NCBI GenBank assembly: GCA_020343875.1
Contig: CP070811.1
Location: 2,582,279-2,629,642 of the forward strand
Origin: Anaerolineales bacterium
Lineage (GTDB): Bacteria; Chloroflexota; Anaerolineae; 4572-78; NAK82
Direction: 5' to 3'
Length of the DNA stretch: 47,364 bases
Shown one piece after another: positions 14,174 to 41,866 of the stretch (its first letter is position 1; each line of letters starts with the position of its first letter). The notes beneath the pieces are model-generated. The model was not told the origin of the DNA. It ran no database searches and saw nothing but the letters and a program-made list of their open reading frames with translations. Position numbers and translations under genes: made by a program.

Positions 14174-14731
14174 ATGGCTCAACAATTGCAGCAAGGGTTG
14201 TTCCTGGCGCTGGCCGGAGTGGCGGTGGTGGCCGCGCTGGGAGTGATTTTCAACCGGAATGCAGTCCACAGCGCGCTATCGTTGTTGGCGAACTTTGTGG
14301 CATTGGCAATGCTCTACGTGTTGCTCAACGCCCAATTCATCGCCATAGTGCAGGTGGCTGTCTATGCAGGCGCCATTGTCGTGCTCTTCTTGTTTGTGGT
14401 GATGTTGTTGGGGGCCGGGGGTGAAATGCAGATGGGAGGCTGGCTCAACTGGCGCACGGCGTTCATAGTGGCAGCCGCCTTGGTCTTGCTGACTTTGACT
14501 GGCACCGCGGTGTTTGAAGGGACGATCAACGGTGCCATAGGCACCGCCACGCCGGAGCAAATCGCCCAGGTGGGCCAGACCGAGGCGGTAGGCACGGCCC
14601 TATTCACCGATTATCTGCTGCCTTTTGAATTGGCTTCGGTGCTGCTGCTGGTAGGTATGCTGGGGGCAGTGGTGCTCGGCCAGCGGTGGCGGGGGGCAAT
14701 TGCTGGTCGCCCGTCAGGCGAGGCAGAATGA
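14174..14731 (+). CDS. nuoJ: NADH-quinone oxidoreductase subunit J
   Basis: A 185-residue membrane subunit with five hydrophobic helices. The conserved third helix reads VQVAVYAGAIVVLFLFVVMLL, including the pi-bulge region that takes part in coupling. The open frame extends back to 13976, overlapping nuoI with non-family sequence; ATG 14174 (GGGGAATGGTAGT upstream) begins the family-like N-terminus MAQQLQQGLFLALAG. Confidence 0.94.
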   Translation: MAQQLQQGLFLALAGVAVVAALGVIFNRNAVHSALSLLANFVALAMLYVLLNAQFIAIVQVAVYAGAIVVLFLFVVMLLGAGGEMQMGGWLNWRTAFIVAAALVLLTLTGTAVFEGTINGAIGTATPEQIAQVGQTEAVGTALFTDYLLPFELASVLLLVGMLGAVVLGQRWRGAIAGRPSGEAE

Positions 14732-14753
14732 CGAAAAAGGAAGGTGAGGCACT

Positions 14754-15062
14754 GTGACCGCTGTCCCAACCTCATGGTTTCTGTTATTGAGTGCGATCTT
14801 GTTCGTCATTGGGGCGGGGGGCGTTCTGCTTCGACGTAACGTGCTCATTATGCTCATGTCTGTCGAGATGATGATGAATGCTGTCAACCTCACCTTCATC
14901 GCCTTGTCACGTCACCTCAGCTCACTTACCGGCCAGATATTCGTCTTTATGGTGATGGCCGTGGCTGCTGTTGAGGTGGCGGTAGGATTGGCTATTCTGA
15001 TTGAACTGAACCGTCTGCGCGCGACGACTGACGTGGACGATGTTTCGTCATTGAAGGGGTAG
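14754..15062 (+). CDS. nuoK: NADH-quinone oxidoreductase subunit K
   Basis: A 102-residue membrane subunit with three helices. Family residues include the glutamates in MLMSVEMMMNAVNLTF and AAVEVAVGLAILI, which sit on the proton path, and RNVLIML. Translation starts at GTG 14754 with GGTGAGG four bases upstream. Two bases separate its stop from nuoL. Confidence 0.97.
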   Translation: MTAVPTSWFLLLSAILFVIGAGGVLLRRNVLIMLMSVEMMMNAVNLTFIALSRHLSSLTGQIFVFMVMAVAAVEVAVGLAILIELNRLRATTDVDDVSSLKG

Positions 15063-15064
15063 CA

Positions 15065-17047: not shown

Positions 17048-17075
17048 GCGTAAAGCTTAAGGCGTAGAACGTAAA

Positions 17076-18578: not shown

Positions 18579-18588
18579 GGAATTATCC

Positions 18589-25881: not shown

Positions 25882-26613
25882 ATGAGACGAATTAGCCGCT
25901 CCAGTAAGCTACCACTCTACCATCAGTTGTACCAGATACTGCGGGGTAACATAGCAGATGGCGACTGGCAGCCGGGGGACATGATTCCGCCGGAGTCTGA
26001 GTTGATCGACAGGTACCGGGTGAGCCGCACCACGGTACGCCAGGTGTTGGACATGCTTGCCAGCGAGGGTTTGATTGAGCGGAAACAGGGGCTGGGCACG
26101 TTTGTGATTCATCCCACAGTGGACCAGGGTTTGGTGCGGATCGTAAACTTCACCGAGGATATGCGCTTGAGAGGGTGTGAGCCGAGTTCACGGGTGTTGT
26201 TTTCTGGTCTTGTTCGAGCGGTACAAGATATCGCTGAGAAATTGCAGGTCGAGCCAGGCGAAGAGCTGGCACGCCTGGAACGTTTGCGCTTGGCGGATGG
26301 CGAGCCGATGGGCATCGAGGAATCGTATCTCGTTCATCGTTATTGCCCTGGCATCCTGCAGGGCGACTATGAGACAGCCTCTTTGCGGGAGGCCCTGGAG
26401 CAGAATTATGGCATCCGCTGGGCACATGCCACGCAGGCTATACGGGCTATCCTGACACCGCCTGAACTGGCCAGCACATTGGGAATCAAAGCCAGGTCAG
26501 CGTTACTTTTCCTCGAGCGAGTCTCCTATACCCAAGAGGGCCTACCGGTCGAGTTTCTGCGCATTTACTATCGGGCTGACCTATACGTTCTTTATAATGA
26601 ATTGCAGGGCTAG
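25882..26613 (+). CDS. GntR/HutC-family transcriptional regulator
   Basis: A 243-residue one-component regulator. The N-terminal winged helix (LPLYHQLYQILRGNI, PPESELIDRYRVSRTTVRQ, GLIERKQGLGTFV) is followed by a UTRA effector domain (about residues 95-238; RLRLADGEPMGIEESYL, FLERVSYTQEGLPVEFLRIYYRADLY). UTRA domains bind small molecules, often sugar phosphates or histidine-pathway intermediates. It opens the sugar-catabolism locus and likely represses it until an intermediate accumulates. ATG 25882 has AAGAAGGG upstream. Confidence 0.93.
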   Translation: MRRISRSSKLPLYHQLYQILRGNIADGDWQPGDMIPPESELIDRYRVSRTTVRQVLDMLASEGLIERKQGLGTFVIHPTVDQGLVRIVNFTEDMRLRGCEPSSRVLFSGLVRAVQDIAEKLQVEPGEELARLERLRLADGEPMGIEESYLVHRYCPGILQGDYETASLREALEQNYGIRWAHATQAIRAILTPPELASTLGIKARSALLFLERVSYTQEGLPVEFLRIYYRADLYVLYNELQG

Positions 26614-26778
26614 CATTTAAAAGACCTTTTTGTCGTATCAGATTACCTGTTCAATTTTCTGGGTGTACCCCTGGCCCTCAGCTACAGGCCTTTTGAAGTG
26701 CCCGAGGTGGCTTGTTCTGGAAGATACCAGGCAAGTCGTTAATTGGCTTGGCTCCGGCCAGGCTGGATAGGGGGAGAC

Positions 26779-28200
26779 ATGAAGAAAAAGACGACCTTAG
26801 CCTTAATTGTGGGAACCCGTGATTTCTTCCCGGCCGAACCCGTGCTTGAGGCGCGGCGAGAGATGTTGGCGCTTCTGGACGGGATGGATATTGGCACGCT
26901 GATTCTGGATGAAGATGCTACCCATCTGGGGGCGGTCGAAACCTGGGAGGACGCTCAAAAATGTGCAGCGCTGTTCAGAGCCAATCGTGACCGGATTGAT
27001 GGCATCTTGGTGGTGTTGCCTGTCTTCGGCCCGGAGAGGGGTATCGCAGACTCGATCAAGTTGTCCGAATTACAGGTGCCCATCCTGGTCCAGGCCTACC
27101 CCGACGCCCCTGATAAGATGGGGGTGGAACTGCGAAGGGATGCTTTTTGTGGCAAGATTTCGGTCTGCAACAACCTGAGCCAGTATGGCTATCCTTTCTC
27201 CCTGACAGAGAACCACACCGTTCAGCCCACCACGGATGGCTTTAAGACAGACCTGAACAAGTTTGTGGGCGCCTGCCGGGTGGTGAAGGGTCTCCGGAGA
27301 GCGCGGCTGGGAGCGGTGGGCGCCCGGCCGACGATTTTCAACACCGTGCGCTATAGCGAAAAGCTATTGCAAGCGGATGGTATCGGCGTCACCACGATTG
27401 ACCTGTCCGAGATCTTTGCTGCCACTGATAAGCTGGCGGATCAGGACCCCAGGGTGCGCGAACGTTTGGAAGGCATCCAAGCCTATATCAATACCGATGC
27501 AGTGCCCTTATCCCCGCTGGTCAAGATGGCCAAGCTAGGCATCGTGCTGGATGACTGGATAGCTGCCAATGAGTTGGACGCCACCGCCATTCAGTGCTGG
27601 ACATCCATGCAACAGAACTACGGGGTGAACGTCTGTGCCCTGATGAGCATGATGAGTGACCGGTTGATGCCCAGCGGCTGTGAGGTGGATGTGACCGGCG
27701 TGCTGTCTATGTATGCTCTACAGCTTGCCTCTGGCAAGCCCAGTGCTTTGGTGGACTGGAACAACAACTACTTGGACGACCCGGATAAGTGTGTTCTGTT
27801 CCACTGTGGTAATTGGGCTCGCAGCTTCTTCTCTGAAGTTAAGATGGCGAACGCCGAGATCCTGGCCACTGTGCTCGGCAAAGAGAGCACATACGGCACT
27901 GTGTCAGGGCGGGCTGTCGCCAGCCCAATGACTTTTGCCCGCATCACCACCAACGATCGGCTTGGCAAAATCCAGGCTTACGTTGGCGACGGTGAGATCA
28001 CCGATGACGACCTGGATACATTTGGCAGCCGGGCTGTGGTTGAAATTCCCAGGCTGCAAACGCTGCTGCGATATGTTTGCAGGAATGAGTTTCCGCATCA
28101 TACAGCTATGAATGCCTCACATTCGGCGGCCATCCTGGCCGAGGCCTTTGAGACCTACCTGGGTTGGGAAGTCTATTATCACACGAGACCAGACTCCTGA
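26779..28200 (+). CDS. L-fucose/L-arabinose isomerase-like protein (first copy)
   Basis: A 473-residue protein of the FucI-like superfamily, which interconverts aldoses and ketoses with Mn2+. Residues of the metal site are likely Glu in SGCEVDVTG, Asp in SALVDWNNNY and His in LFHCGNW. It resembles the short 'FucI-related' group rather than the 590-residue true FucI, so the substrate is open. A clear paralogue lies at 40400-41866 in the opposite orientation; both share DAFCGKxSVCNN and PSALxDWNNNYxDDPDK. The start at 26779 (MKKKTTLALIVG) has AGGGGGAG upstream; an earlier TTG (26743) lacks one. Confidence 0.82.
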   Translation: MKKKTTLALIVGTRDFFPAEPVLEARREMLALLDGMDIGTLILDEDATHLGAVETWEDAQKCAALFRANRDRIDGILVVLPVFGPERGIADSIKLSELQVPILVQAYPDAPDKMGVELRRDAFCGKISVCNNLSQYGYPFSLTENHTVQPTTDGFKTDLNKFVGACRVVKGLRRARLGAVGARPTIFNTVRYSEKLLQADGIGVTTIDLSEIFAATDKLADQDPRVRERLEGIQAYINTDAVPLSPLVKMAKLGIVLDDWIAANELDATAIQCWTSMQQNYGVNVCALMSMMSDRLMPSGCEVDVTGVLSMYALQLASGKPSALVDWNNNYLDDPDKCVLFHCGNWARSFFSEVKMANAEILATVLGKESTYGTVSGRAVASPMTFARITTNDRLGKIQAYVGDGEITDDDLDTFGSRAVVEIPRLQTLLRYVCRNEFPHHTAMNASHSAAILAEAFETYLGWEVYYHTRPDS

Positions 28201-28264: not shown

Positions 28265-29230
28265 ATGGACATTGTATGTCTGGGCGAACTCCTTGTTGAC
28301 ATGTTTCCGGCCGAGCTGGGCCGGAGACTGGCCGAGGTATCGGCGTTTCGGCCTAAGCCTGGCGGCGCGCCCGCCAACGTGGCCGTGGCGGCGGCGCGCC
28401 TGGGAGGGCGCAGCGCCTTCATTGGCAAGGTAGGTGATGAGGCATTTGGCCATCACCTGGCCGACGTCTTGAGGAAAGAGGGCGTGGACGTAACCGGGAT
28501 GCGATTTGACGAAGAAGCCCGTACCGGCATGGCCTTTATTGCTATGCCGGATGAGAACACAGCGGAGTTTGTCTTCTACCGCAATCCAGGTGCTGACATG
28601 CGCTTGCGGGCGGACGAGCTGGACCGTGAGTTGCTGGGGAAAACTCGTGCTTTCCACTTCGGGTCTCTCAGTTTGGGCCAGGAACCCAGCCGCAGCGCCA
28701 CTCTGGAGGCGGCTAAAATCGCCCGCCAGGGGGGCGCGCTGATTTCCTTCGACGTCAATTACCGGCCAACCTTGTGGCGTAGCCCCGAAGAGGCCTATGA
28801 GCGGGTTATGGCCACGGTGCCTGACGTCGACCTGCTCAAAGTCAACGAGGTAGAGTTGGCCCTGCTGACTGGGCGTGAAGATCTGGACGTGGCTAGCAAG
28901 TCCCTGTTAGAGCATGGTCCTGACCTATGCGTAGTGACGTTGGGCCCAGGCGGAAGCTTCTTCCAGGTCTCGGAAGGAGGGGAGCACGTTCCCGCCTTTA
29001 AGGTCCAAACCGTGGATGCCGTCGGGTGCGGGGATGCATTTATCGCCGGGCTGCTCTGCCAGCTTGTGATTGACGCTAACTGGCGCGATCAGCTATCGGT
29101 GACCCGCATGCGCGAAATCCTGCGTTACGCCAACGCCGTGGGCGCACTCACGGCACTTACGCAGGGCGTCATCCCGGCTTTGCCCACCGCCAGCCGGGTT
29201 GAGCAGTTTCTGGCCCAATACAATCAATGA
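28265..29230 (+). CDS. PfkB-family carbohydrate kinase
   Basis: A 321-residue ribokinase/fructokinase-type enzyme that phosphorylates a sugar with ATP. The N-terminal substrate signature is GGAPANVAVAAARLGG and the C-terminal ATP/anion-hole signature is DAVGCGDAFIAGLL, with the catalytic Asp in GCGD (most relatives have GAGD). VNEVELALLTG and FDVNYRPTLW are typical of fructokinases. In context it would phosphorylate the ketose made by the upstream isomerase. AGGAGGGGG precedes the ATG. Confidence 0.9.
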   Translation: MDIVCLGELLVDMFPAELGRRLAEVSAFRPKPGGAPANVAVAAARLGGRSAFIGKVGDEAFGHHLADVLRKEGVDVTGMRFDEEARTGMAFIAMPDENTAEFVFYRNPGADMRLRADELDRELLGKTRAFHFGSLSLGQEPSRSATLEAAKIARQGGALISFDVNYRPTLWRSPEEAYERVMATVPDVDLLKVNEVELALLTGREDLDVASKSLLEHGPDLCVVTLGPGGSFFQVSEGGEHVPAFKVQTVDAVGCGDAFIAGLLCQLVIDANWRDQLSVTRMREILRYANAVGALTALTQGVIPALPTASRVEQFLAQYNQ

Positions 29231-29246
29231 GATAGTGGAGAGCTAT

Positions 29247-30089
29247 ATGCCTGAAACCCTGAAGCAAGAACGCAGTTTGCAGGATCTGAAGGAAAAGGCA
29301 CGCAGTCTGCGCCTCGACGTGTTGGAAATGACGACCCGGGCTGGCTCGGGTCACCCTTCCAGCTCTTTCTCCTCCGTAGAGATACTGACGGCTCTGTATT
29401 TTGGCGACATTCTGCGCTATCGCAGCCACCAACCGAACTGGCCGGAACGGGATCGCTTTATTCTGAGCAAAGGGCACGCTGCGCCGCTGCTCTACGCGGT
29501 ACTGTCTCATGCCGGTTACTTTGAGCGGGAGATGCTGTGGCGCTTACGCCAGGTGGATAGCCCGGTGGAAGGTCACCCGATCCAGAACAAGCTGCCGGGC
29601 ATCGAGACCACATCTGGCTCGCTAGGTAAGGGCATATCCGTGGGGCTAGGCCACGTCTTGGGCGGCCGCCTGAATGGGCTGAAGTATCGAGTCTACGTGC
29701 TGCTGGGCGACGGAGAGTGCGAGGAGGGCCAGATTTGGGAAGCGGCCATAGCGGCTGCCCACTTCAAGGCGGACAACCTGATCGCTATCGTGGACTACAA
29801 CAAGTACCAGGAAACCGGTCCGATCAGCCGGGAGATGGCACTGGAGCCCTTCGCCGCAAAGTGGCGCGCCTTCGGTTGGCACGTGGAAGAAGCGGACGGA
29901 CACGACGTCGGCTCGGTCATTGAGAAACTGAAATCGGCGCAAGCAGTCACGGGCCAGCCATCAGTGGTCATCGCTCATACCGTCAAAGGCAAGGGCGTTT
30001 CGTTCGTAGAAGCAGACTACACTTTCCATGGTCGTGCGCTAAAGCCAGAACAGGCCGAAAAAGCGCGGGAGGAAATCCTATGCAGCTAG
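29247..30089 (+). CDS. Transketolase N-terminal subunit
   Basis: A 280-residue TPP-binding half of a two-subunit transketolase. The TPP/Mg signature is GDGECEEGQIWEAA with a later IVDYNKYQ; SGHPSSSFSSVEIL and SKGHAAPLLYAVL are substrate and cofactor loops. It would work only with the next gene's product. The frame is open from 29199 in the previous gene, but ATG 29247, 16 bp after the kinase stop, gives the family N-terminus. Its last 10 bases overlap the next start. Confidence 0.94.
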   Translation: MPETLKQERSLQDLKEKARSLRLDVLEMTTRAGSGHPSSSFSSVEILTALYFGDILRYRSHQPNWPERDRFILSKGHAAPLLYAVLSHAGYFEREMLWRLRQVDSPVEGHPIQNKLPGIETTSGSLGKGISVGLGHVLGGRLNGLKYRVYVLLGDGECEEGQIWEAAIAAAHFKADNLIAIVDYNKYQETGPISREMALEPFAAKWRAFGWHVEEADGHDVGSVIEKLKSAQAVTGQPSVVIAHTVKGKGVSFVEADYTFHGRALKPEQAEKAREEILCS

Positions 30090-31063
30090 GTGAAAAAGCC
30101 GGGCTCAAGCCTTCGAAACCGATGCGTGACGTGTTTGGCGATGCCTTCCTGGAGCTCTGCCGGCAGAATCCCAAGATTGTGGTGCTGGATGGGGACCTGT
30201 GCAACACGACTAAGACATTGGCGGTGCGCCAAGAGTTTCCGGAGCGGTTCTTCAACATCGGCCTGGCCGAAAGTAACATGGTCAGTATCGGCGCTGGGCT
30301 GGCGGACTGTGGGTTCATCCCATTCATCACCAGCATGTCCTCGTTCCTGCTGTGTAATGCGTACGACCAGCTTCGACTGTCCATCGCCATCGCGGGCCTT
30401 AACGCCAAGGTGGTGGGCAGCCATGGTGGGATCACCCTGGGCAAGGATGGCCCAACCGCGATGGCCATTGAGGATCTGGCCCTGATGGGCGGTCTGCCTA
30501 CCTTCACCATCCTGGTGCCATGCGACCCAACTTCGATGCACCTGGCGGTGCGAGCCATGGCCGAGCACGTGGGCCCGGTGTATTTGCGCTCCAGCCGCGT
30601 GGCCATACCACACATCTACCCTGAGGACGATTGCCCCTTCGAGATTGGGGTGGCTAATACCGTGCGCCAGGGATCTGACCTGACCATCATAGGCTGTGGC
30701 ATCATGGTCGCGGCGGCGCTGGACGCGGCGGCGATACTGGCTGAGGAAGGAATTCAGGCGCGCGTGCTGGATATGCACACCCTCAGGCCGATGGACACAC
30801 AGGCGATTGCGGCTGCGGCGCGGGAGACAGGCGCGATCGTCACGGCTGAAGAGCACTTGCTCCACGGCGGCATGGGGAGCAATGTGGCACGCGCGGTGGG
30901 GGCTACTCACCCGGTGCCGATGCGCTTCATTGGCCTGGCCGATACCTACACGGATTCGGGAGACCCGTACGACTTGTTGAAGAAATACGGTATGACCGCT
31001 GAGGACATCGCCCAGGCAGCGCGTGAAGTGGTGGCAGCCAAGGGGGAGACTGCGGGCGCTTGA
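30080..31063 (+). CDS. Transketolase C-terminal subunit
   Basis: A 327-residue partner containing the pyrimidine-binding domain (FFNIGLAESNMVSIGAGLA with the catalytic Glu) and the C-terminal domain (VLDMHTLRPMD, TAEEHLLHGGMGSNVA). It starts ten bases before the end of the N-terminal subunit, in another frame, a sign of translational coupling. Two-subunit transketolases are used in several peripheral sugar pathways, for example AptAB acting on D-apulose 4-phosphate, as well as in central metabolism of some bacteria and archaea. Substrate here is unknown. Confidence 0.94.
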   Translation: MQLGEKAGLKPSKPMRDVFGDAFLELCRQNPKIVVLDGDLCNTTKTLAVRQEFPERFFNIGLAESNMVSIGAGLADCGFIPFITSMSSFLLCNAYDQLRLSIAIAGLNAKVVGSHGGITLGKDGPTAMAIEDLALMGGLPTFTILVPCDPTSMHLAVRAMAEHVGPVYLRSSRVAIPHIYPEDDCPFEIGVANTVRQGSDLTIIGCGIMVAAALDAAAILAEEGIQARVLDMHTLRPMDTQAIAAAARETGAIVTAEEHLLHGGMGSNVARAVGATHPVPMRFIGLADTYTDSGDPYDLLKKYGMTAEDIAQAAREVVAAKGETAGA

Positions 31064-31141: not shown

Positions 31142-32428
31142 ATGCTACACCAGGAGTTGTTACGACTTGAGGCCGAGGGCAAACCGATCCGTGTTGGAGT
31201 TAGTGGCGCTGGCTGGATGGGGGGCGGTTTTCTAGCCCAGGTCTCGCATGTACCCGGCATGGAGGTTTGGGTGCTGGCTGATGCAGACACGCGTGCTGCC
31301 TGGGAGGCGTTCTTGGCTACAGGCGTTGAGCGTGACGAAATCGTCGAGGCCAGCCAGCCTGGCCATGCTATGGACGCCCTGCGGGCGGGCAGGCGGGTGG
31401 TAACCGGATCCTACACTCTGGCCGCGCAGTTGGAAGCGGTGGATATTGTCACTGACGTCACACCATCACCGGCCATTGGCGCCGAAACAGCCTATGCCTG
31501 CATCCAGCATGGTAAGGACGTGGTGCTGGTAAACATCGAGGCTGACGTGACGGTGGGACGCATTCTCAACAAGATGGCCCAACAGGCGGGAGTGTTATAC
31601 ACCGTTTCCTCGGGCGATGAACCGGGCTGCCTGATGGAACTCTTTGACTTCGTAGGCAGCCTGGGCTACCAGTTGATCGTCATCGGCAAGGGGAAGAATA
31701 ACCCCCTTAACCCGACAGCTACGCCAGACACGGTGGCCGCATCGGCCAAGCGTGCAGGCAAGGATCCCTTTCAGGTGGCATCCTACGTAGATGGCACCAA
31801 GACTATGTTCGAGATGACGTGCGCGGCCAATGCCACCGGGTGCCTGCCGATGCAACGTGGCATGATGGGTCCCGAAGCCACTCTCGAGACGGTATCTGAG
31901 ATCTTTGCCCTTGAAGAAGATGGCGGCATCGCCAAGTTCCCAGGCGCAGTGGACTTCGTGCAAGGGAATTCGATGGCGGGTGGTGTCTTTGTCACCGTCC
32001 GCGTGGAGGATGAGCGCATCCGGGGTGATCTACAATACCTTAAGGTGGGGTCTGGCAAGTATTTTACCTTCTTCCGTCCCTATCACCTCTGGTTCTTAGA
32101 GGCACCGATTTCCATCGCCCGAGCCCATCTGCATCGCCAGACGACGCTGGTACCTCTGGACCAGCCAGTGGCCGAGGTCATGACGGTGGCCAAACGTACG
32201 CTGAAGCCAGGCGAGCGGCTGGATGACTTTGGCGGCTTCACGTTCTACGGGATTATGGACCGGGCTGAGGAGGCGCGTACCTTGAACGCGCTTCCAGTTG
32301 GGCTGGCGCCCGGTGCAGAAGTGGTACGACCGGTTGCGGCTGGGCAGATTCTGACCTGGGAAGACGTCAGGCTGGACGAAGACAGTATTGTCGTCAAGTT
32401 GTGTCGCCAGCAGAGCGGCAAATTGTGA
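31142..32428 (+). CDS. NAD(P)-binding oxidoreductase with C-terminal SAF domain
   Basis: A 428-residue protein. The N-terminus is a Rossmann fold (VGVSGAGWMGGGFL near residues 18-31). A homoserine-dehydrogenase-like middle part contains DVTPSPAIGAE, VLVNIEADVTVG and SSGDEPGCLMEL. A SAF domain occupies roughly 340-425 (KRTLKPGERLDDFGGF, LPVGLAPGAEVVRPVAAGQILTW-type). Such proteins occur in sugar and sugar-acid gene clusters and are often misnamed flagellar FlgA-like because of the SAF domain. It probably oxidises or reduces a pathway intermediate; I cannot name the reaction. CAGGAG lies before the ATG. Confidence 0.78.
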   Translation: MLHQELLRLEAEGKPIRVGVSGAGWMGGGFLAQVSHVPGMEVWVLADADTRAAWEAFLATGVERDEIVEASQPGHAMDALRAGRRVVTGSYTLAAQLEAVDIVTDVTPSPAIGAETAYACIQHGKDVVLVNIEADVTVGRILNKMAQQAGVLYTVSSGDEPGCLMELFDFVGSLGYQLIVIGKGKNNPLNPTATPDTVAASAKRAGKDPFQVASYVDGTKTMFEMTCAANATGCLPMQRGMMGPEATLETVSEIFALEEDGGIAKFPGAVDFVQGNSMAGGVFVTVRVEDERIRGDLQYLKVGSGKYFTFFRPYHLWFLEAPISIARAHLHRQTTLVPLDQPVAEVMTVAKRTLKPGERLDDFGGFTFYGIMDRAEEARTLNALPVGLAPGAEVVRPVAAGQILTWEDVRLDEDSIVVKLCRQQSGKL

Positions 32429-32449: not shown

Positions 32450-32468
32450 TGGAGTGAGTACCACTCCA
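32450..32468 (+). terminator. Short hairpin between oxidoreductase and epimerase genes
   Basis: TGGAGTG (32450-32456) and CACTCCA (32462-32468) pair perfectly with a 5-nt loop, 22 bp after the oxidoreductase stop. No U-tract follows; partial termination or mRNA end protection is possible. Confidence 0.4.
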
Positions 32469-32491
32469 TGCGCCTACTGTTCTGCCTGACT

Positions 32492-32507
32492 CACTGGTAT
32501 ACAAGTG
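32492..32507. promoter_or_regulatory. Candidate GntR operator over an extended -10
   Basis: CACTGGTATACAAGTG is a 16-bp palindrome with a single mismatched pair. It contains TGG-TATACA (32495-32503), an extended -10-like box, so a bound repressor would block an internal promoter before the epimerase gene (start 32540). It is related to the site at 25823-25838 in the gntR leader. Confidence 0.45.
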
Positions 32508-32539
32508 TAACCGATAGACCAAATCAAAGGAGGTTTGCC

Positions 32540-33502
32540 ATGCGTATCGGATTACTTACGGCCCCTTTCTCGAGCCTGTCTCTTGAGGAAGCGTTGGATC
32601 GAGCAGTAGAGGTGGGTGTGTCGGCTGTCGAGGTTGGCTCAGGTGGCTATCCCGGCCACCCTCATTGCCCGGTGGATGAGTTGCTCAAGAGCGAGTCCAA
32701 GCGCGCGGAATATTTGGAGGCGATTAGCTCGCGAGGCTTGATCATCAGCGCTCTCAGTTGCCACAATAATCCTATCCACCCCGACCAAGAGGTGGCCAAG
32801 GAAGCGGACGAGGTGTTCCGCAGGACGGTGCGCCTGGCTCAGCTGTTGGAGGTGCCAGTTATCAATACGTTTTCTGGCCTGCCTGCCGGTGCAGCGGGTG
32901 ATCGTATGCCTAACTGGGTGACTTGCCCCTGGCCGCCGCACTTCTTGGAGATGCTGGATTACCAGTGGCATCAGGTGGCAATCCCCTATTGGAAGGAGGC
33001 CGCCAAGTTCGCCGAGGACCACGGCATCAAGGTTGCCTTTGAGATGCACCCTGGTATGCTGGTCTACAACGTGGATACGATGCTCCGGATGCGCGATGCA
33101 GCGGGGCCGACCATCGGTTGTAATTTCGATCCCAGCCATCTGTTCTGGAATGGGGTGGACCCGGTGGCGGCCATTCGCAAACTGGGCGATGCCATTTTCC
33201 ACGTGCATGGCAAAGACGTATACGTTGACCCTATCAACGTCTCTGTCAACGGCTGTAACGATAACAAGCCGTATGATCGAATCCCAGAGCGCTCCTGGAC
33301 CTTCCGCAGCATTGGCTATGGCCACAGTGCCAAGACTTGGAAAGATATCGTGAGTGCTTTCCGGATGGTGGGTTATGACTACGTCATCTCCGTCGAACAC
33401 GAAGACGCCCTGATGTCGGTTGACGAGGGTCTGGCTAAGGGGGTGGCCTTGCTGAAGGATGTCTGCATCTTCGAACCGCCCGGCGAGATGTTCTGGGCCT
33501 GA
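32540..33502 (+). CDS. Sugar phosphate isomerase/epimerase (xylose-isomerase-like TIM barrel)
   Basis: A 320-residue AP-endonuclease-2/xylose-isomerase-like TIM barrel. Metal-site residues are likely Glu in VAFEMHPGML, Asp and His in NFDPSHLFWNG, His in FHVHGKD and Glu in ISVEHEDALMS. Relatives epimerise ketoses or isomerise sugars, lactones or inosose. The start is set by a perfect AAAGGAGG seven bases before ATG 32540; the open frame from 32468 would include the operator-like palindrome. Its promoter may make it and the downstream dehydrogenase genes a separate transcription unit. Confidence 0.88.
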   Translation: MRIGLLTAPFSSLSLEEALDRAVEVGVSAVEVGSGGYPGHPHCPVDELLKSESKRAEYLEAISSRGLIISALSCHNNPIHPDQEVAKEADEVFRRTVRLAQLLEVPVINTFSGLPAGAAGDRMPNWVTCPWPPHFLEMLDYQWHQVAIPYWKEAAKFAEDHGIKVAFEMHPGMLVYNVDTMLRMRDAAGPTIGCNFDPSHLFWNGVDPVAAIRKLGDAIFHVHGKDVYVDPINVSVNGCNDNKPYDRIPERSWTFRSIGYGHSAKTWKDIVSAFRMVGYDYVISVEHEDALMSVDEGLAKGVALLKDVCIFEPPGEMFWA

Positions 33503-33648: not shown

Positions 33649-35730
33649 ATGGCCTCTTCTGAAACTGTCGAGACTCCAACCCAGCTCGGTGCAGACCTGA
33701 GCGGCGAACGCCTGGTAGCTATGCTCTACCAGATGGTGCTCATCCGCCTATTTGAAGAGTCCGCACAACAGCTTTACTTCTCCGGGAAGGTCCACGGAAC
33801 CATGCACCTTTACAGCGGAGAGGAAGCTGTAGCGGTTGGAGCTATGGCTGCTCTTCGGCCAAGTGATTACATCACGTCTACCCATCGAGGCCATGGGCAC
33901 GCTATCGCCAAGGGCCAGGACGTGAACGCGATGATGGCTGAGCTGCTTGGTAAGGAGACCGGCGTTTGTCGTGGGCGCGGGGGCTCTATGCATATGGCCG
34001 ACCTCACCTTGGGCAACCTGGGAGCCAATGGGGTTGTTGCTGGAGGTATCCCCATCGCGGTGGGGGCTGGGCTTAGCCTGAAGCTACAGAAAACGGATGG
34101 GGTGGTGGTGTGCTTCTTTGGCGACGGGGCATCCAATACGGCCAATTTTCATGAGAGCCTGAACATGGCCGCCATCTGGAATCTGCCAGTGGTTTTCCTA
34201 TGCGAGAACAACCAGTACGCCATGTCTATGCCCGCTCAGCGCTCAGTTTCTGCGCCAAGCATAGCCGACCGCGCTTGCGCCTATGATATCCCCGGTGCAG
34301 CGGTGGATGGCATGGATGTGCTGGCAGTCTACGAGGCAGTCAAGATAGCTGCGAGGCGCGCCCGCCGGGGTGAAGGGCCAACCCTGCTGGAAGCGGTTAC
34401 TTACCGCTACAAGGGACATTCCAAGAGCGATAAGCAGGTGTACCGGACCAAGGAAGAGCTCCGGGCCTGGATGGAGCGAGACCCGATCCCCCGCTTCCAG
34501 GCATGGTTGGCTGATCGAGGGTACTTGACCCAGGCTGAGGGCGAAGCACTGCATGTCAAGGCGCAGGCCGTCATTCAGGCGGCTATCGATTTCGCCCAGG
34601 CTGGCCCTGAACCCCCTGTGGAAGATCTCCTGATCGACGTGTATGAAGAAGAGCCGGCGGTAGAGGCCAATCCAGATCAGGCTCTGCCTGCTTGGGCCCG
34701 GATCACCTTTGGCCCCGCCACGCCCATCGTGCCCCCACCAGGGGAGCGGGAAATCACCTATGCAGAGGCATTGCGTGAGGCCATGGAGCAGGCATTAGAA
34801 GGCGATTCCCGCGTGTTCCTCATAGGAGAAGACGTCGGCGTCTACGGTGGGGCCTTTGGGGTGACGATGGGCCTGATTGACCGTTTCGGGCCAGAGCGGG
34901 TGCGCGATACGCCCATCTCGGAAAACAACATCGCCGGGGCATCGGTGGGAGCTGGCATAACCGGGATGCGACCTATCGCCGAGATACAGTTTATGGACTT
35001 CGTGACGTTATCTATGGAACAGCTCGTGCTGCAGGGGGCCAAGATCCGCTACATGTTTGGGGGCAAGGCCCACGTGCCGATGGTTCTCCGTACCCCGGGC
35101 GGTTCGGGCACCGGCGCTGCGGCTCAGCATTCTGAGAGCCTGGAGTCCTGGTTTGTCAATGTGCCGGGCCTCAAGGTGGTCATGCCCAGCACGCCCTATG
35201 ATGCCAAAGGACTGCTGCTGGCTGCGATTGCAGATAACAATCCGGTCATCTTCGTTGAGCACAAGTTGCTCTATCGAACCCGAGGCATGGTCCCTAAGGA
35301 GCCGTACTTGGTGCCTTTGGGGCGGGCCGAGATCAAGCGCCCTGGACAACACCTGACAGTGGTGGCGGCTTCTATCATGGTGCCCCGTGCGCTGGAAGCC
35401 GCTCAACAACTGGCTGAAGAGGGGATCGAGATCGAGGTCATCGACCTGCGCACCTTGAAACCGTATGATGTGCAGACCATCGTCGAATCAGTGAAACAGA
35501 CCGGCCGTTTGCTGATTGCACACGAAGCGCCTCTGATTGGCGGCTTCGGCGCTGAGATCGCCGCTATGGTCGCCCAGAGTGAGGCGTTTGCCTACCTGGA
35601 GGCGCCCATCCTCCGTTTGGGCGGTGCTGACGTGCCCATTCCTTACAACCGGACGCTGGAGCAGGCCAGCGTGCCCCAGATGGAAGACATCGCCGAGGCC
35701 GCACGGCGCCTGGTTAAGCTGGAGATTTGA
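33649..35730 (+). CDS. 2-oxoacid/acetoin dehydrogenase E1, alpha and beta subunits fused
   Basis: A 693-residue thiamine-diphosphate enzyme. Residues 1 to about 345 are E1-alpha ([30 protein letters not shown] motif [14 protein letters not shown] with ENNQYAM). After a proline-rich linker ([12 protein letters not shown]), residues about 368-693 are E1-beta ([60 protein letters not shown]). Most bacteria encode these as two chains or as the unrelated homodimeric AceE. Substrate could be pyruvate, acetoin or another 2-oxo compound. The E2 gene follows after 48 bp; no E3 gene is in the window. Confidence 0.9.
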
Positions 35731-35778: not shown

Positions 35779-37107
35779 ATGCCAACACCTGTGATTATGC
35801 CTAAGTTCGAAATGGCCCAGGAGACCGGCACCGTCTTGCGCTGGCTCAAGTACGCTGGCGATTCGGTTGAGAAAGGGGAAGCCATCCTGGAGGTCGAAAC
35901 GGACAAAGTGAACATGGAGGTCGAGGCACCGGCCAGCGGAATTCTGGCAGGCATCCAGGCTGATGCCGGTACCGTGGTGCCGATTGGGCAGCCCATTGCG
36001 TATATTATCCAGCCCGGCGAACCTTGGCCAGAGGATGCTGCTGATGCCCTGGTCGCCCCCGCAGCTGAGACCGCCGAGACCCAGACAGCCCCTGCCCCTA
36101 CGAGCCGAGCTACCCCGCTGGCTGAGCGTATAGCCGAGGCGCACGGGGTTGATCTGAGCGTTGTGCCGCCAGCGGACGCTGGGGGGCGAGTCACCAAAGC
36201 GGATGTGGAAGCCTATCTGGCCGCGCGACAGGCCCAACCGTCGCCTCAGCTGGGAAAAATCAAGGCTGTGCCGGCTGCCAGGCGATTAGCCCGGGAGATG
36301 CATGTCCCCCTGGAGATGGTCTCCGGCACGGGTCCGGGCGGTCGCATTCAAGCAGAAGATGTGCGCCAGGCTGCGGCTGGGCAATTGGCCTCCCCTCCAC
36401 TAGTTGCGGGCCGGCCAGCCGTAGGGCGTACCATTCCCCTGGTCGGGATGCGGCGGACCATCGCGGAGCGCATGACGGCCAGTGTACGCCAGGCCCCTCA
36501 ATTCACCTTGAGTGTAGACCTGAATATGAGCCGGGCGTTGGCCATCGTCGAAGACCTGCGAGCCGGCACGGAGGCTGCCAACGGCCCGCGGGTGACTCTA
36601 ACAACTTTCCTGGTCAAGGCGTGTAGCTGGGCTTTGATGCGCCACCCGGCCCTCAACGCATCTCTCGAAGGGGAAAACATCTTGGAGTGGGCTGAGATCA
36701 ACATGGGCGTGGCAATGGCCGTGGAAGAAGGACTAATCGTCCCTGTGATTCATCATGCAGACCGGTTGGAGATCATCGACATAGCCGACCGGCTGGCCGA
36801 TCTCTCCACACGAGCTCGCCAGGGACGGCTGCGCCCGGAGCATGTACAGGGCGGCACCTTCACCCTGTCTAACCTGGGCATGTTCGGCATTGACCGCTTT
36901 ACCGCGATTTTGAACCCCCCTCAGGCCGGCATTCTGGCGATTGGGCGCGTATCCAGGCGACCATTGGTCGAGGAGGATCAGGTGGTCATCCGGCCCATGG
37001 CTACTTTTACTCTGACTGCGGACCATCGAGTTGTAGACGGTGCTCGGGCGGGTCGTTTCCTGCTCGACCTCCAGAGCGCTGTTGAGCGCCCGGGCGTGAT
37101 GCTGTGA
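35779..37107 (+). CDS. Dihydrolipoyl acyltransferase E2 with two subunit-binding domains
   Basis: A 442-residue core enzyme that takes the acyl group from E1 to CoA. It has one lipoyl domain (residues 1-78, lipoyl Lys43 in ETDKVNMEV). Two peripheral-subunit-binding domains follow in tandem: about 111-150 (PLAERIAEAHGVDL, GGRVTKADVEAYL) and about 158-195 (AARRLAREMHVPLEMV, GPGGRIQAEDVRQA). The catalytic domain spans about 215-442, with the His/Asp motif DHRVVDGARAGRF. Most E2 proteins have a single binding domain. It is adjacent to the fused E1 and surely forms a complex with it. Confidence 0.9.
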   Translation: MPTPVIMPKFEMAQETGTVLRWLKYAGDSVEKGEAILEVETDKVNMEVEAPASGILAGIQADAGTVVPIGQPIAYIIQPGEPWPEDAADALVAPAAETAETQTAPAPTSRATPLAERIAEAHGVDLSVVPPADAGGRVTKADVEAYLAARQAQPSPQLGKIKAVPAARRLAREMHVPLEMVSGTGPGGRIQAEDVRQAAAGQLASPPLVAGRPAVGRTIPLVGMRRTIAERMTASVRQAPQFTLSVDLNMSRALAIVEDLRAGTEAANGPRVTLTTFLVKACSWALMRHPALNASLEGENILEWAEINMGVAMAVEEGLIVPVIHHADRLEIIDIADRLADLSTRARQGRLRPEHVQGGTFTLSNLGMFGIDRFTAILNPPQAGILAIGRVSRRPLVEEDQVVIRPMATFTLTADHRVVDGARAGRFLLDLQSAVERPGVML

Positions 37108-37222: not shown

Positions 37223-38446
37223 ATGAATGGTAAGACCATCGTCGTACTGGCTACCCTGGACACCAAGGGACATGAGGCTCAGTATCTGCGTGAGCAGATC
37301 GAGAAAATGGGTGACAAGGCCCTAGTCGTTGACGTGGGCGTGGTTGGCACGCCGGCGGCTAGAGCCGACATCACCCGAGAAGCAGTGGCCGAGGCAGGAG
37401 GTATACCCCTGGCCAAACTCCTGGAGAAACCCGACCGGGAGGTGGCTGCGCCCCTGATGGCCAACGGCGCGACCAAGATCGTGACCGAACTGGCGGATGA
37501 GGGCAAGGTTCACGGAATCGTGGCCATGGGCGGCACGCAGGGCACCACCCTGGCCACCAAGGTCATGCGTGCCCTGCCCTACGGATTCCCGAAGGTGATG
37601 GTCTCCACCATGGCCTCCGGCAACGTCGCGCCCTGGGTTGATATTAAGGACATCACCATGATGTTCTCGGTGACCGACATCTTGGGGCTGAATCCAGTCA
37701 CACGCAAGATCTTGGCCAATGCCGCCGGGTCAGTCTGTGGCATGGCCGGCGTGGATGTGAAACTGGAACGGGGCGAAAAGCCATTGGTGGCCGTCACGAC
37801 CGTGGGCATAACCACCCAGGGCGCGATGAAGGCCGTCCAGGTACTCGAAGACGCCGGCTACGAAACCATAGTGTTCCACGCCATTGGCCCGGGCGGACGC
37901 GCTATGGAACAGATGATGAAGGAAGAGATCATCGGCGCGGTGCTAGACTATTCGACCATTGAGGTTTCTAACGAAATGCACCATGCCCTGCTGGCAGGGG
38001 GGCAGGAACGCCTGACCACAGCAGGGAAGCTGGGTATCCCGCAGGTGATCTGCCCAGGCGCGATTGAAGTGTTGGTCTTCAACGAGCCGGAGACCGTGCC
38101 TCAAAAATACCAGGGTCGCACACTCATCCGCCACAGTCCACAGATCACCGATCTGCGCCTGAATAAGGAGGAGATGGCCGAAGTCGGGGGAGAGGTGGCT
38201 CGCCGTTTGCAGCATACTCGGGATGAGGCCATCTTCATGATCCCTACCGCAGGCTATGACAGCTACGCGGTGGAAGGGATGGGCTTCTATGAGCCGCACG
38301 CCGACGCTGCATTTGTGGCTGAGTTGAGAGCCAATCTGCCCAAGAATTTCCGGATCATCGAGCGGGATACGCATATAGAGGACCCCGCTTTCGCCACAGA
38401 AGCAGCCAAACTGTTGATTTCCCTGATTGAGAAGCGGCAGAACTAA
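37223..38446 (+). CDS. Tm-1-like ATP-binding domain protein (UPF0261)
   Basis: A 407-residue protein matching the UPF0261/Tm-1 N-terminal family: TIVVLATLDTKGHEAQYL at the start, AMGGTQGTTLATKVMRALPYGFPKVMVSTMASG near 95-125, and IPTAGYDSYAVEGMGF near 345. In tomato, Tm-1 carries this ATP-binding domain fused to a C-terminal TIM barrel and blocks tobamovirus replication. In bacteria the function is not established and the genes sit in catabolic clusters. Here it is followed by the matching TIM-barrel gene. AAGGAGTTGAGG precedes the ATG. Confidence 0.88.
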   Translation: MNGKTIVVLATLDTKGHEAQYLREQIEKMGDKALVVDVGVVGTPAARADITREAVAEAGGIPLAKLLEKPDREVAAPLMANGATKIVTELADEGKVHGIVAMGGTQGTTLATKVMRALPYGFPKVMVSTMASGNVAPWVDIKDITMMFSVTDILGLNPVTRKILANAAGSVCGMAGVDVKLERGEKPLVAVTTVGITTQGAMKAVQVLEDAGYETIVFHAIGPGGRAMEQMMKEEIIGAVLDYSTIEVSNEMHHALLAGGQERLTTAGKLGIPQVICPGAIEVLVFNEPETVPQKYQGRTLIRHSPQITDLRLNKEEMAEVGGEVARRLQHTRDEAIFMIPTAGYDSYAVEGMGFYEPHADAAFVAELRANLPKNFRIIERDTHIEDPAFATEAAKLLISLIEKRQN

Positions 38447-38448
38447 CC

Positions 38449-38526
38449 CTCTGTCAAAGATGATTTTTAGGGTAACAACAGCCGCCATAGGGTTCCAGAT
38501 CACCCCTCAATTCAGTATTGACAGAG
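38449..38526. repeat. Spaced 9-bp perfect inverted repeat between the Tm-1-like genes
   Basis: CTCTGTCAA (38449-38457) is the exact reverse complement of TTGACAGAG (38518-38526), with 60 bp between. It occupies nearly the whole intergenic gap and ends just before the ribosome-binding site (AGGAGG). The mRNA could loop here; the right arm also contains a TTGACA box. Confidence 0.45.
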
Positions 38527-38547
38527 CACCAGTAGGAGGCAAGTAAG

Positions 38548-39405
38548 ATGGCTAAACGTTACTCTCGCCAGGAGTTCCTGGATCGTCTGTGGGGCGAGAT
38601 CAAACGCGGCAAACCTCTGGTTATGACCGGGGCTGGCAATGGCATTGCAGCCAAATTCATCGAGCGCGGCGGGGTGGACATTCTGGGCGTCTACAACACG
38701 GGCTACTTCCGCATGCAGGGCTATGGCTCACTGGCCGGCATGCTGCCCATGGCCGACGCCAATGAATTGGTCTACCAGGTGGGCAAGCGCGAGGTGCTGC
38801 CACAGGTCAAGGAAGTACCCGTCATCGCCGGGCTGAACGGTGTCGACCTGCTGCGCGATATGCGCCTTTTCCTGGAAGACTGCAGGCGGATTGGTTTTTC
38901 GGGCGTGCACAACTTCCCTACAGTGGCCTGGTTCGACGGGGAGTTTCGCAGAACTTTGGAAAAGACCGGCTTGGGCTACCAACATGAAATCGACATGCTC
39001 AACCTGGCCCGCGAGTTGGATATGCTGACCATCGGCTACGCCTTCAACGAAGAGGATGCCGAACGGCTGTTGAAGGAAGCGGCCCCCGATATCTTCATCT
39101 TCCATGCGGGGATTACTCGGGGCGGGACGACCGGCTATACTGAGGGCCGATCCATTCAGGAGATGGCCGAACGCAGCCAGGCACACTACGAGCTGGCCAA
39201 GAAGATCAAGCCGGACGTGATCCTGTTGGCTCACGGCGCGGCGCTGACAAACCCCGAAGATGGGCAGTATATGATCGACCACACCGCTTGTCACGGCGTG
39301 CAGTTGGGGTCCAGCATCGAACGCATGGCTATTGAGCAGCCGCTGGAGGCGCGGGCGGCATCGTTCAAGGACGTGCATTTCCCAGACGGGGCTCAACGCT
39401 GGTAG
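38548..39405 (+). CDS. TIM-barrel 'phosphoenolpyruvate hydrolase' family protein (Tm-1 C-terminal-like)
   Basis: A 285-residue TIM barrel of the family annotated as PEP hydrolase-like. Visible are GAGNGIAAKFIERGGVDILGVYNTG, VIAGLNGVD, GVHNFPTVAWFDG, and FHAGITRGGTTGYTEG. It corresponds to the C-terminal half of plant Tm-1, whose N-terminal half is encoded by the gene just upstream; a heteromeric or stepwise action is likely. A lyase or hydrolase acting on a phosphorylated or 2-oxo acid is plausible but not shown. AGGAGG lies before the ATG. Confidence 0.85.
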   Translation: MAKRYSRQEFLDRLWGEIKRGKPLVMTGAGNGIAAKFIERGGVDILGVYNTGYFRMQGYGSLAGMLPMADANELVYQVGKREVLPQVKEVPVIAGLNGVDLLRDMRLFLEDCRRIGFSGVHNFPTVAWFDGEFRRTLEKTGLGYQHEIDMLNLARELDMLTIGYAFNEEDAERLLKEAAPDIFIFHAGITRGGTTGYTEGRSIQEMAERSQAHYELAKKIKPDVILLAHGAALTNPEDGQYMIDHTACHGVQLGSSIERMAIEQPLEARAASFKDVHFPDGAQRW

Positions 39406-39427: not shown

Positions 39428-40366
39428 ATGCTCAGAGTAGTATTCTTTGGCAATTCTCAGAGCGTGTTCAGCAACCGCCACTTTCAGGCCTTGCTGGAAA
39501 CACCATGCGAACTGGTAGGCCTGGTCGACGCGCCGCTCTCAAAGCGGACCTCCACCAACCCCACCCAGACCGACCTACCCAATTTTGTAGAGGTGGCACG
39601 CCAGGGTGGGACACCCGTTTTCGAGCCTGACAGCCCCAACTTGCCGGAGTTCGTGGAGGCCACCCGTGGCCTGTCTCCCGATCTATTCCTGGCGGCCGGG
39701 TACACCAACTTGCTCAAGGCCCAGATTCTGGCGGTGCCTCGTCTTCTGGCGGCTAATTTTCACGCTTCGTTGCTGCCCGCCTACCGGGGAAAGCATCCAG
39801 TATTCTGGGCCTTGAGGCACGCTGAGCGCTGGGCCGGCCTGACGGTGCATGTCATGGACCTCGGCCTGGATACGGGCCACATCCTCTACCAGGTTCGGGT
39901 GCGGACCCGCCAGCGGGACTCGGTAGCCTCCCTCTACGAGCGGATTATGGAGCGCAGCGTGAAGCTGGTGGAACGGCTGATTGAGGATGCTGAACAGGGA
40001 AGGCTACAGCCCAGGCCACAGCTTGAAAGCGGAGCGTCCTATTACTCGTCCGTCTCTGAGGACGATTTCAGGCTTGACTGGGCCCGGCATGCCGAGCAAT
40101 TGCGGCGCTGGATTCAAACCTCGCCAGGCCAGTGCTTCGCCAATGCGGCCGGTCAACGCCTCTTTTTTATGGACGCTGAGGTGGTTGAGCGGCCAAACGA
40201 CGCGCCTCCCGGCGTGCTGGTTCGAGTGGGCAGAACCAGTTGCACAGTAGCGGCCGGCGCAGACGCATTGCGCCTGCGCCGGGTGAGACTCAGTCATCAG
40301 GAAGAGAAATCCATGCCGCAATTGTGTCGAGAACTCGGCCTGGAACCAGGCCTTTCTTTGGCTTGA
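39428..40366 (+). CDS. Formyltransferase-fold protein (Fmt/ArnA-like)
   Basis: A 312-residue protein with the folate-dependent formyltransferase N-terminal fold. The catalytic triad is present: N110 and H112 in ANFHASLLPAYRG and Asp in LDTGHIL. A C-terminal domain of about 100 residues has the Fmt-C-like DDFRLDWARHAEQLRRWIQTSPG. It is too divergent in HPVFWALR and its loops to be called the housekeeping methionyl-tRNA formyltransferase with confidence. It starts 22 bp after the TIM-barrel gene and looks co-transcribed with the sugar locus, so transfer or removal of a formyl group on a pathway compound is possible. Confidence 0.78.
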   Translation: MLRVVFFGNSQSVFSNRHFQALLETPCELVGLVDAPLSKRTSTNPTQTDLPNFVEVARQGGTPVFEPDSPNLPEFVEATRGLSPDLFLAAGYTNLLKAQILAVPRLLAANFHASLLPAYRGKHPVFWALRHAERWAGLTVHVMDLGLDTGHILYQVRVRTRQRDSVASLYERIMERSVKLVERLIEDAEQGRLQPRPQLESGASYYSSVSEDDFRLDWARHAEQLRRWIQTSPGQCFANAAGQRLFFMDAEVVERPNDAPPGVLVRVGRTSCTVAAGADALRLRRVRLSHQEEKSMPQLCRELGLEPGLSLA

Positions 40367-40399: not shown

Positions 40400-41866
40400 T
40401 TAAGCACTCACTTCGCTTCTATGCCAATGCACGTCCCAGCCCAGGTATTTGCTCAGGGCTTCGTTCACGGCCGAGGCGGTCTGCGACAGGCTGATGGCTG
40501 CGTGGTGCTCGAAGCCATGCTCGCAGATGTAACCCAGCAAGCGTTGAAAGCCCGGCACACGCACCACGCCATATCCGCCGAATGTCCGTAGCGGGTCATT
40601 GGTGAGTTCCCCTTCCCCCACGTAGACCAGAATCCGGCCATTGAAGTCGTCCGTGGACACTCGACAGAAGGTGAACGGCTCGGCCCGCAGCCGGCCCACC
40701 ACGGTGCCGAAGGTGTTTTCCTTGCCCACCGTGTCGGCGATGATCGCCTGGTAGCTCATGGTGGCCGCTTCGTCGGGCCCGGCCACGCCAGCGTGGATCT
40801 CGTCCTCGCCCACAAATATGTCTTTGGGCAGGTTGGAGCAGTGGAAAATAACGCCTTTGTCCGGGTCGTCGGCGTAGTTGTTGTTCCAATCTATCAACGC
40901 ACTCGGCTTTTGGGAGGCCAGAGTCAGGGCATACATGCCCACCACCCCTGCGATGTCGGTCTCGCACGCCGAGGGCATGAGGTTGTTGCTCATGATGCTC
41001 ATCAAGGTGCACGGCTGCACCCCGTAGAACTCTTCCATCGCCGTCCAGCATTGTAAGGCACTGGCCACCAGATTATTCTCCGCCATCCAGCCGTCAATCA
41101 CCAGGCCTAATTTGGCCATTTTCACCAGCGCATCATTGGGTACCCCCTTGACGGGGATGTAGCCGGTGATTTGTTCCAACTTGGCTTTGAGTTTCGTTTC
41201 GCCATCGCTAATACCGCGGGCGAGGCCGAAGACTTCAGAGAGGTCGATTGTCTCCACCGAGATACCCGCCCGCTCGAGCAGTTTCTCGCTGAAGCGCACG
41301 GTGTTGAACGCGGCAGGTCGGGCGCCGATGGCTCCCACGCGGGCCTTTTTCAAGCCGCGCACGACACGACAGATACTCACAAAACGCCGCAAGTCGGCCC
41401 TGAAACTCTCGCTTTCTGGGTCTGCTGTGTGCAAGCTCGTTAGCGAGTACCGTATGCCGTACTGATGCAAGTTGTTGCAGACCGACATCTTGCCGCAGAA
41501 AGCGTCGCGCCGGTCAGCATAGGTGGCCATTTGGCCCACGTCGTCGGGGAAAGCGTGTACCAAGACCGGTACGTCCAGGCCAGCCCAGCGCAGTGTATTG
41601 GCTACCGCCCGCTCGTCGCCGAAATTGGGCAGCGTCACCAAGACACCATCGATCTGGCCGTGATGTTTTTTGAACAGGTCCACGCATTTTTGAGTGTCGG
41701 CCAGGGTCTCGACGCTGCCGGCCTTGGTATCCTCCGGTGTCAGGGCCACGGCGGTGATGCCTTCTTGGTCCAGCACCTTCAGGATAGCCTGTCGCCCACT
41801 TTCACACAAGTGGTCGGGAAAAAAGCCTCGGTTGCCTACGATGACTCCCAATACTGGCTGGTTCAC
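40400..41866 (-). CDS. L-fucose/L-arabinose isomerase-like protein (second copy)
   Basis: A 488-residue paralogue of the isomerase at 26779-28200, alike along its full length, with the same candidate metal residues (SACETDIAG, SALIDWNNNY, IFHCSNL). It contains a short insert (GEDEIHAGVAGPDEAAT) after the FHC motif that the first copy lacks. It reads toward the sugar locus from the opposite side, with 33 bp between convergent stops. Start is GTG 41866 with a perfect AAGGAGGT upstream. It probably handles a related sugar or the other end of the same pathway. Confidence 0.83.
   Translation of the reverse strand: MNQPVLGVIVGNRGFFPDHLCESGRQAILKVLDQEGITAVALTPEDTKAGSVETLADTQKCVDLFKKHHGQIDGVLVTLPNFGDERAVANTLRWAGLDVPVLVHAFPDDVGQMATYADRRDAFCGKMSVCNNLHQYGIRYSLTSLHTADPESESFRADLRRFVSICRVVRGLKKARVGAIGARPAAFNTVRFSEKLLERAGISVETIDLSEVFGLARGISDGETKLKAKLEQITGYIPVKGVPNDALVKMAKLGLVIDGWMAENNLVASALQCWTAMEEFYGVQPCTLMSIMSNNLMPSACETDIAGVVGMYALTLASQKPSALIDWNNNYADDPDKGVIFHCSNLPKDIFVGEDEIHAGVAGPDEAATMSYQAIIADTVGKENTFGTVVGRLRAEPFTFCRVSTDDFNGRILVYVGEGELTNDPLRTFGGYGVVRVPGFQRLLGYICEHGFEHHAAISLSQTASAVNEALSKYLGWDVHWHRSEVSA

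Follow-up and report, generated by a model that had tools for sequence, protein, structure and literature searches.

Plant Tm-1, known from tomato, confers resistance to virus; it was recruited from a metabolic enzyme whose reaction is unsettled. We take the UPF0261 and TBST families to be COG5441 and COG5564. According to the available text of a 2016 study, bacteria, archaea and fungi carry UPF0261 and TBST as two genes and streptophytes as one fused gene, and outside plants the split form is normal; the two families co-evolve, and of 504 bacterial genomes with TBST, 491 carry UPF0261 as well (PMC5028733). The equivalence between the PF09370 family and the C-terminal half of plant Tm-1 is taken from the same text (PMC5028733). 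In fungi, COG5441-COG5564 is among the five best-ranked pairs in the part of the source at hand (PMC8963296). The split of the two genes, noted in the initial annotation of this locus, and their pairing and co-occurrence were published in 2016 and are not new (PMC5028733, as far as its available text goes).

A precedent for the activity of one family comes from Novosphingobium aromaticivorans. PDB entry 9mpy shows a UPF0261 protein from this organism (Saro_1862) with acetovanillone bound, and acetovanillone catabolism in N. aromaticivorans begins with MarK, described in the accessible part of the source as a single-component kinase (PMC13101465). Saro_1862 is probably MarK; a literature search on 9MPY found no relevant paper. 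The acetovanillone in 9mpy also brought up HpeHI and AcvAB as candidate UPF0261 enzymes, and these were rejected, HpeHI being composed of ATP-grasp and swivel domains (PMC12167813, in the text available). No activity of the TBST family was found in a search of open-licence papers. With 9mpy and MarK as precedents, the statement that the family's role is unknown can no longer be upheld for the UPF0261 half.

The genes of the locus were read correctly at the outset, the finding is mostly known, and the interpretation offered with it is partly supported. What is added here is a revised placement of the pair among its relatives, a precedent for kinase activity and an operon specific to one clade. 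This clade, which is new, comprises eight loci, is centred on Chloroflexota and has a re-tuned TBST protein and a partner set of its own.

The U-T pair

The window, by which we mean the whole stretch of 47,364 nucleotides analysed from an Anaerolineales bacterium, carries one gene of each family on the + strand. U (37223-38446, 407 aa; PF06792, PF23189) is a UPF0261 protein, of the family of the Tm-1 N-terminal half, and a proposed small-molecule kinase. T (38548-39405, 285 aa; PF09370) is a TIM-barrel protein, of the family of the Tm-1 C-terminal half, and a proposed enzyme for a phosphorylated product. Both open reading frames are intact, a gap of 101 bases lies between them, and by eye a purine-rich, ribosome-site-like stretch directly precedes the ATG of each. 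U matches PF06792 at 5.3e-62 (209.3 bits; cut-off 27) and PF23189 at 4.7e-67 (225.9 bits; cut-off 27), and T matches PF09370 at 8.6e-90 (301 bits; cut-off 33.8). Sequence matches were found between U and tomato Tm-1 (3wry, 2.9e-47) and Saro_1862 (9mpy, 1.8e-59), and between T and Mll9387 (2p10, 2.4e-70). That two adjacent genes represent the two Tm-1 half families is borne out by these matches.

The AlphaFold2 model of U has a mean pLDDT of 92.9 and resembles the Tm-1 structures at Z 41.7-42.4 (3wrw highest, 42.4) and then 9mpy (Z 33.0); unrelated structures come next at Z 12. All 36 of the near-invariant UPF0261 columns (at least 95% conserved in 81 relatives) are kept in U, as are 30 of 36 in Saro_1862, the presumed MarK, and 32 of the 33 covered in Tm-1.

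The model of T has a mean pLDDT of 80.3, with values below 50 in the loops 61-68, 126-128 and 190-199. Among the structures listed by Foldseek, 2p10 is closest to it (Z 31.9), followed at Z about 19 by TrpA, IGPS and other barrels, including 4ml9, whose title refers to a TIM barrel with a conserved phosphate-binding site. Foldseek by itself places PanB next after 2p10. A phosphate site common to T and TrpA was looked for at the sequence level and not found, the profile comparison of the two giving no sequence kinship (hhalign E 0.097), so the idea that T grips a phosphate draws solely on the fold.

Relationship to tomato Tm-1

The same genome carries a second U-T pair (G000:C1:3891659-3893804), and this pair is closer to the plant and structural references: its U matches Tm-1 with 269.8 bits, against 164.7 for the window U, and its T matches 2p10 with 351.5, against 240.4 for the window T. 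In a tree of 84 UPF0261 proteins, which includes a single partial plant sequence, six members of the window clade form one clade (support 100/100). This clade joins UPF0261 proteins without T (97/90) and falls outside a set of 66 sequences (100/98) in which Tm-1 lies together with the canonical paired proteins; the tree is unrooted, and loss and gain of T look the same in it. Tm-1 and MarK are both long branches, that of MarK being very long and away from the window clade.

By sequence, then, the window pair is not this genome's counterpart of Tm-1, and the initial description of it as a bacterial version of that protein is not supported, the second pair being closer. The window pair and the plant Tm-1-like proteins have both families, the fold of U and nearly all of the near-invariant columns in common. 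They differ in that the plant protein is a fusion whereas U and T are two reading frames with their own stop codons, in the position of U outside the clade holding Tm-1, and in the window having no viral context.

Linkage of U and T

Linkage was assessed in the best 80 of a larger number of T loci in a scan of genome contigs. A U match was present within the fetched stretch at 65 of these loci, and at 55 it lay within 300 bases of T on the same strand, with gaps taken from composition-scored gene calls (a negative gap at L102 is an artefact of two T matches). The 15 loci showing no U match include several at contig ends. One canonical-type T gene, L139 (G105:C5:820851-821672), contains a single in-frame TAA.

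In 100 genomes of the host's class, U occurs in 24, T in 17 (one match, in G084, being a 42-residue fragment) and both in 16. T without U is thus confined to one genome, while eight of the 24 genomes with U have no T. Distances among U proteins correlate with those among T proteins (r = 0.73 for 61 pairs, a value reached by none of 2000 permutations; r = 0.66 for the 56 canonical pairs alone). The functional link between U and T that had been proposed from their adjacency is supported by the 55 loci, the 16 of 17 genomes and the correlated distances. The co-occurrence survey suggested with it shows T nearly always accompanied by U, and U at times without T; the two are functionally linked, though not always inseparable.

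So close an association could also mean that the pair is a single two-component enzyme, in which ATP would be bound by U and the second substrate by T, with neither protein working alone, as in HpeHI, which belongs to another, ATP-grasp family. The near absence of T without U, the adjacency of the genes, the fusion in plants and the correlated trees, both those in the available text of PMC5028733 and our own, would all agree with this. We nevertheless think it rather unlikely, given that U stands without T in a third of the U-bearing genomes and that MarK is described, in the part of the source available, as single-component (PMC13101465). Likeness to the HpeHI/AcvAB aromatic dikinase does not extend to the families involved, which are ATP-grasp and swivel there (PMC12167813, available text); at E 0.001, U and T match only UPF0261 and PF09370.

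Gene neighbourhood

The genes around the pair encode enzymes of sugar type and parts of a dehydrogenase complex. Upstream of U on the same strand lie a fused E1 alpha-beta gene of the 2-oxoacid/acetoin dehydrogenase type complex (33649-35730; PF00676, PF02779, PF02780) and an E2 acyltransferase with a lipoyl domain (35779-37107; PF00198, PF02817, PF00364). They are preceded by a xylose-isomerase-like TIM barrel of the sugar epimerase or isomerase type (32468-33502, +; PF01261), a DRL-type oxidoreductase with a SAF domain (31142-32428, +; PF21135, PF03447, PF08666), and the N-terminal (29199-30089, +; PF00456) and C-terminal (30080-31063, +; PF02779, PF02780) subunits of a transketolase. Further upstream, also on the + strand, are a PfkB-like sugar kinase (28265-29230), an L-fucose-isomerase-like protein (26743-28200) and a GntR-like regulator (25882-26613), the kinase and the regulator being reading frames named by eye. 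Directly after T comes a formyltransferase-like gene (FMT; 39428-40366, +; PF00551, PF02911), and the cluster is closed on the opposite strand by another L-fucose-isomerase-like gene (40400-41866, -; PF02952). The dehydrogenase and sugar enzymes that had been noted beside the pair are confirmed by these Pfam assignments to E1 and E2, transketolase, DRL and the xylose-isomerase-like protein.

The two fucose-isomerase-like genes are paralogues (phmmer 520 bits) and flank the operon on opposite strands; the product of 40400-41866 also gives a weak match to sulfoquinovose isomerase (78.3 of 700 bits). Elsewhere in the window, inspection by eye points to a transposase-like reading frame at 194-1330 and, at 5602-20070, a long run of genes resembling a respiratory complex I (nuo) cluster.

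DRL stands in for DXR in Brucella. A role for the DRL-type protein as this genome's isoprenoid (MEP) enzyme was considered and rejected: neither DXR nor IspG has a match in the genome, which is rated 85.6% complete, and HMG-CoA reductase is present. With IspG missing and HMG-CoA reductase in place, the mevalonate route is likelier, and the oxidoreductase therefore probably serves sugar metabolism here.

The window clade and its partner genes

Eight loci make up the window clade: the window itself, L051-L055, L142 (genome G015) and L143 (G119). Matches in G118 and G105 appear to be the same as L052 and L051 and were excluded from the count. Within the best 80 loci, identity to the window T is 79-87% for L051-L055 and then drops straight to 48%. 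The remaining 75 loci are referred to as canonical, and Mll9387 (2p10) and the second pair of this genome belong with them. Window and canonical pairs have the two families, their adjacency and mostly the gene order in common, with a mean identity of about 44% for T and about 38% for U.

Of 74 columns that are near-invariant in the 75 canonical T proteins, 16 are changed in the window T, and 11 of these changes are fixed in all seven clade members compared. The fixed changes lie mostly in or beside the loops that follow barrel strands (31, 34, 51, 53, 195, 231, 232, 251, 253, 254). Since U has kept every one of its near-invariant columns, the changes in T suggest that it has taken on a different substrate and is not decaying.

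The clade also differs from the canonical pairs in its neighbours. Partner genes were counted by six-frame searches with HMMs derived in part from proteins of the window clade, a bias in its favour: E1 was found at four of the eight clade loci (window, L053, L054, L055) and a class II aldolase-like gene also at four (L142, L053, L054, L055), each against none of 75 canonical loci (Fisher p 3.8e-5 for either, kinship ignored). FMT was found at three (window, L142, L054) against none of 75 (p 6.1e-4, kinship ignored), and xylose-isomerase-like genes at five of eight against six of 75 (p 7.3e-4, kinship ignored). The count of E1 by gene calls is likewise zero among canonical loci, and the six-frame search recovered FMT and aldolase genes of L142 that are absent from the gene calls. 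The cupin gene shows the opposite pattern, with none of eight clade loci against 26 of 75 canonical ones (p 0.052, kinship ignored). The link of the pair to E1 and sugar enzymes therefore recurs in relatives, in half of the clade loci for E1 and in five for the xylose-isomerase-like genes.

L054 has the fullest set, with xylose-isomerase-like, RuBisCO-like, U, T, formyltransferase, aldolase, E1 alpha and E1 beta genes. Relatives of FMT directly follow T in both L054 and L142. In L143 an acetolactate-synthase-like thiamine enzyme precedes U instead of E1. E1 was not found at four clade loci, of which L052 and L143 are on contigs of 3.2-4.5 kb and L051 and L142 are not on such short contigs. The exception in the clade is L051, whose only partners are xylose-isomerase-like genes on the opposite strand. 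Beside the window pair there is no class II aldolase, the genome's only match being 39% identical and far away. At L053:3065-5467 and L055:11873-13255, E1 has a lipoyl domain fused at its front end, an unusual position.

Near canonical U-T pairs of many phyla a small cupin gene occurs, often in the same operon (e.g. L063:10828-11247, L112:10119-10532). A pooled Pfam scan of operon neighbours kept 113 of 166 proteins, those of 85-620 residues, and covered none from the window clade, from L056 or L057, or from loci in this genome or G015.

A proposed function for the pair

We propose that U and T both serve, as separate enzymes, a single pathway that breaks down a sugar-derived keto compound, with U as the kinase and T acting on the phosphorylated product, a proposal to which we give an even chance. 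In a first step U, using ATP, would phosphorylate a hydroxyl of a small sugar-derived keto compound. T would then rearrange or cleave this phosphorylated product, and the fragments would pass to the class II aldolase, or in this genome perhaps to transketolase. Finally, the thiamine-dependent E1/E2 complex would yield an acyl-CoA. The order of these steps is our inference from the genes present.

In favour of the proposal are the intact near-invariant columns of U, the conserved pairing, the partner genes of the clade and the barrels that come next to T in fold. Against it are the substrates of MarK, which are phenolic and belong to an aromatics pathway, not to sugars; MarK working with no T partner, none being described in the text available (PMC13101465); the missing E1 at half of the clade loci; and the missing class II aldolase beside the window pair. 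The parts of the proposal differ in strength. By analogy with MarK and Saro_1862, U is quite probably a kinase. The neighbouring genes make a sugar-derived substrate fairly likely. T could act on a phosphorylated ligand, as its modelled fold would allow, and here we lean slightly towards doubt. An ATP-dependent step on a sugar-derived acid had been suggested for the pair; the ATP-dependent part fits 9mpy and MarK, and the sugar acid remains a guess.

A different reading of the same precedent would make U a MarK-like phenol kinase in an operon that degrades a plant-derived aromatic ketone. U and Saro_1862 are of one family and fold, and have most of the near-invariant columns in common, and 9mpy does contain acetovanillone. 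They are 30% identical. MarK stands far from the window clade in the tree, the ten proteins scanned around the pair include neither a carboxylase nor a phosphatase of the Hpe/Acv type, and the neighbours are sugar-type isomerases and transketolase, with an aldolase in clade loci. We therefore judge a phenolic substrate improbable.

PanB belongs to the PEP mutase superfamily. Its appearance among Foldseek's next matches for T, together with the Pfam name of PF09370 and the title of 2p10, could be taken to mean that T is a phosphoenolpyruvate or phosphonopyruvate hydrolase with U as an accessory. The names are predictions, however, the open-licence literature yielded no such activity, and VIA-align 2 ranks TrpA and IGPS next rather than relatives of PEP mutase, so that we give this little credence. 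That the pair is regulatory, as the family name TIM-barrel signal transduction domain used in the available text of PMC5028733 would solely suggest, is very hard to reconcile with the conserved polar positions, which are typical of an enzyme, and with the catabolic gene clusters around every well-covered window-clade locus except L051.

If U is indeed a kinase and T a phosphate-dependent lyase or isomerase acting after it, screening substrates on a bacterial pair would lead directly to what Tm-1 originally did. In the window clade, the close-knit group of partner enzymes limits the substrates to be expected.

UPF0261 and RuBisCO-like proteins

UPF0261 genes also occur in tandem, without T, in five genomes of the class (G001, G013, G040, G049, G072), and in all five clusters a RuBisCO-like gene lies 2.3-2.5 kb away. 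The clusters of G049 (L145) and G013 (L146) include a DeoC/LsrF-like aldolase. A URO-D-like protein was found in L146 by Pfam scan, and in L145 and L147 (G040) by eye; L146 additionally has a BKACE enzyme, an IlvD/Edd dehydratase and a metallo-beta-lactamase-fold protein. The clusters L145-L147 possibly encode an undescribed acid-sugar pathway. A RuBisCO-like gene also directly precedes U in L054. Other RuBisCO-type matches of the class are on contigs without U, with the exception of this genome, whose one RuBisCO-like protein (G000:C1:2515868-2516695) is encoded about 103 kb from the window U-T pair.

For the RuBisCO-like proteins in L146 and L147 the best match is 2,3-diketo-5-methylthiopentyl-1-phosphate enolase, at 348 and 357.1, below the cut-off of 409. 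Enzymes of this kind act on phosphorylated ketones, and such neighbours therefore fit UPF0261 as a kinase. Comparable systems are the DUF1537 four-carbon acid-sugar kinases, found with class II aldolases, and the RuBisCO-like pathways of the OiaX type, which involve phosphorylated sugar acids. These are alike in having a kinase beside an aldolase or a RuBisCO-like protein, but the kinase family differs, and the three RuBisCO-like neighbours scanned reach 156.7-214.3 against a cut-off of 700 for OiaX.

Tentatively, the UPF0261 proteins may in general be kinases that act on enolisable keto compounds, with each one coupled to a particular enzyme for a C-C bond: T in canonical pairs, a DeoC/LsrF-like aldolase and a RuBisCO-like protein in the tandem clusters, and T with a class II aldolase-like protein, formyltransferase and thiamine-dependent E1 in the window clade. 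We hold this to be possible, on the doubtful side. Were it true, the window clade would represent an undescribed sugar catabolic pathway, and UPF0261 would be the missing kinase of several RuBisCO-like-protein pathways. The recurring RuBisCO-like neighbours in any case make UPF0261 a kinase to test for RuBisCO-like proteins that have not been assigned to a pathway.

One further UPF0261 gene, L014:805-3510 (-), is open for 902 aa. Its first ~490 residues have no Pfam match, and the long frame is either a fusion or a read-through of an open upstream frame.
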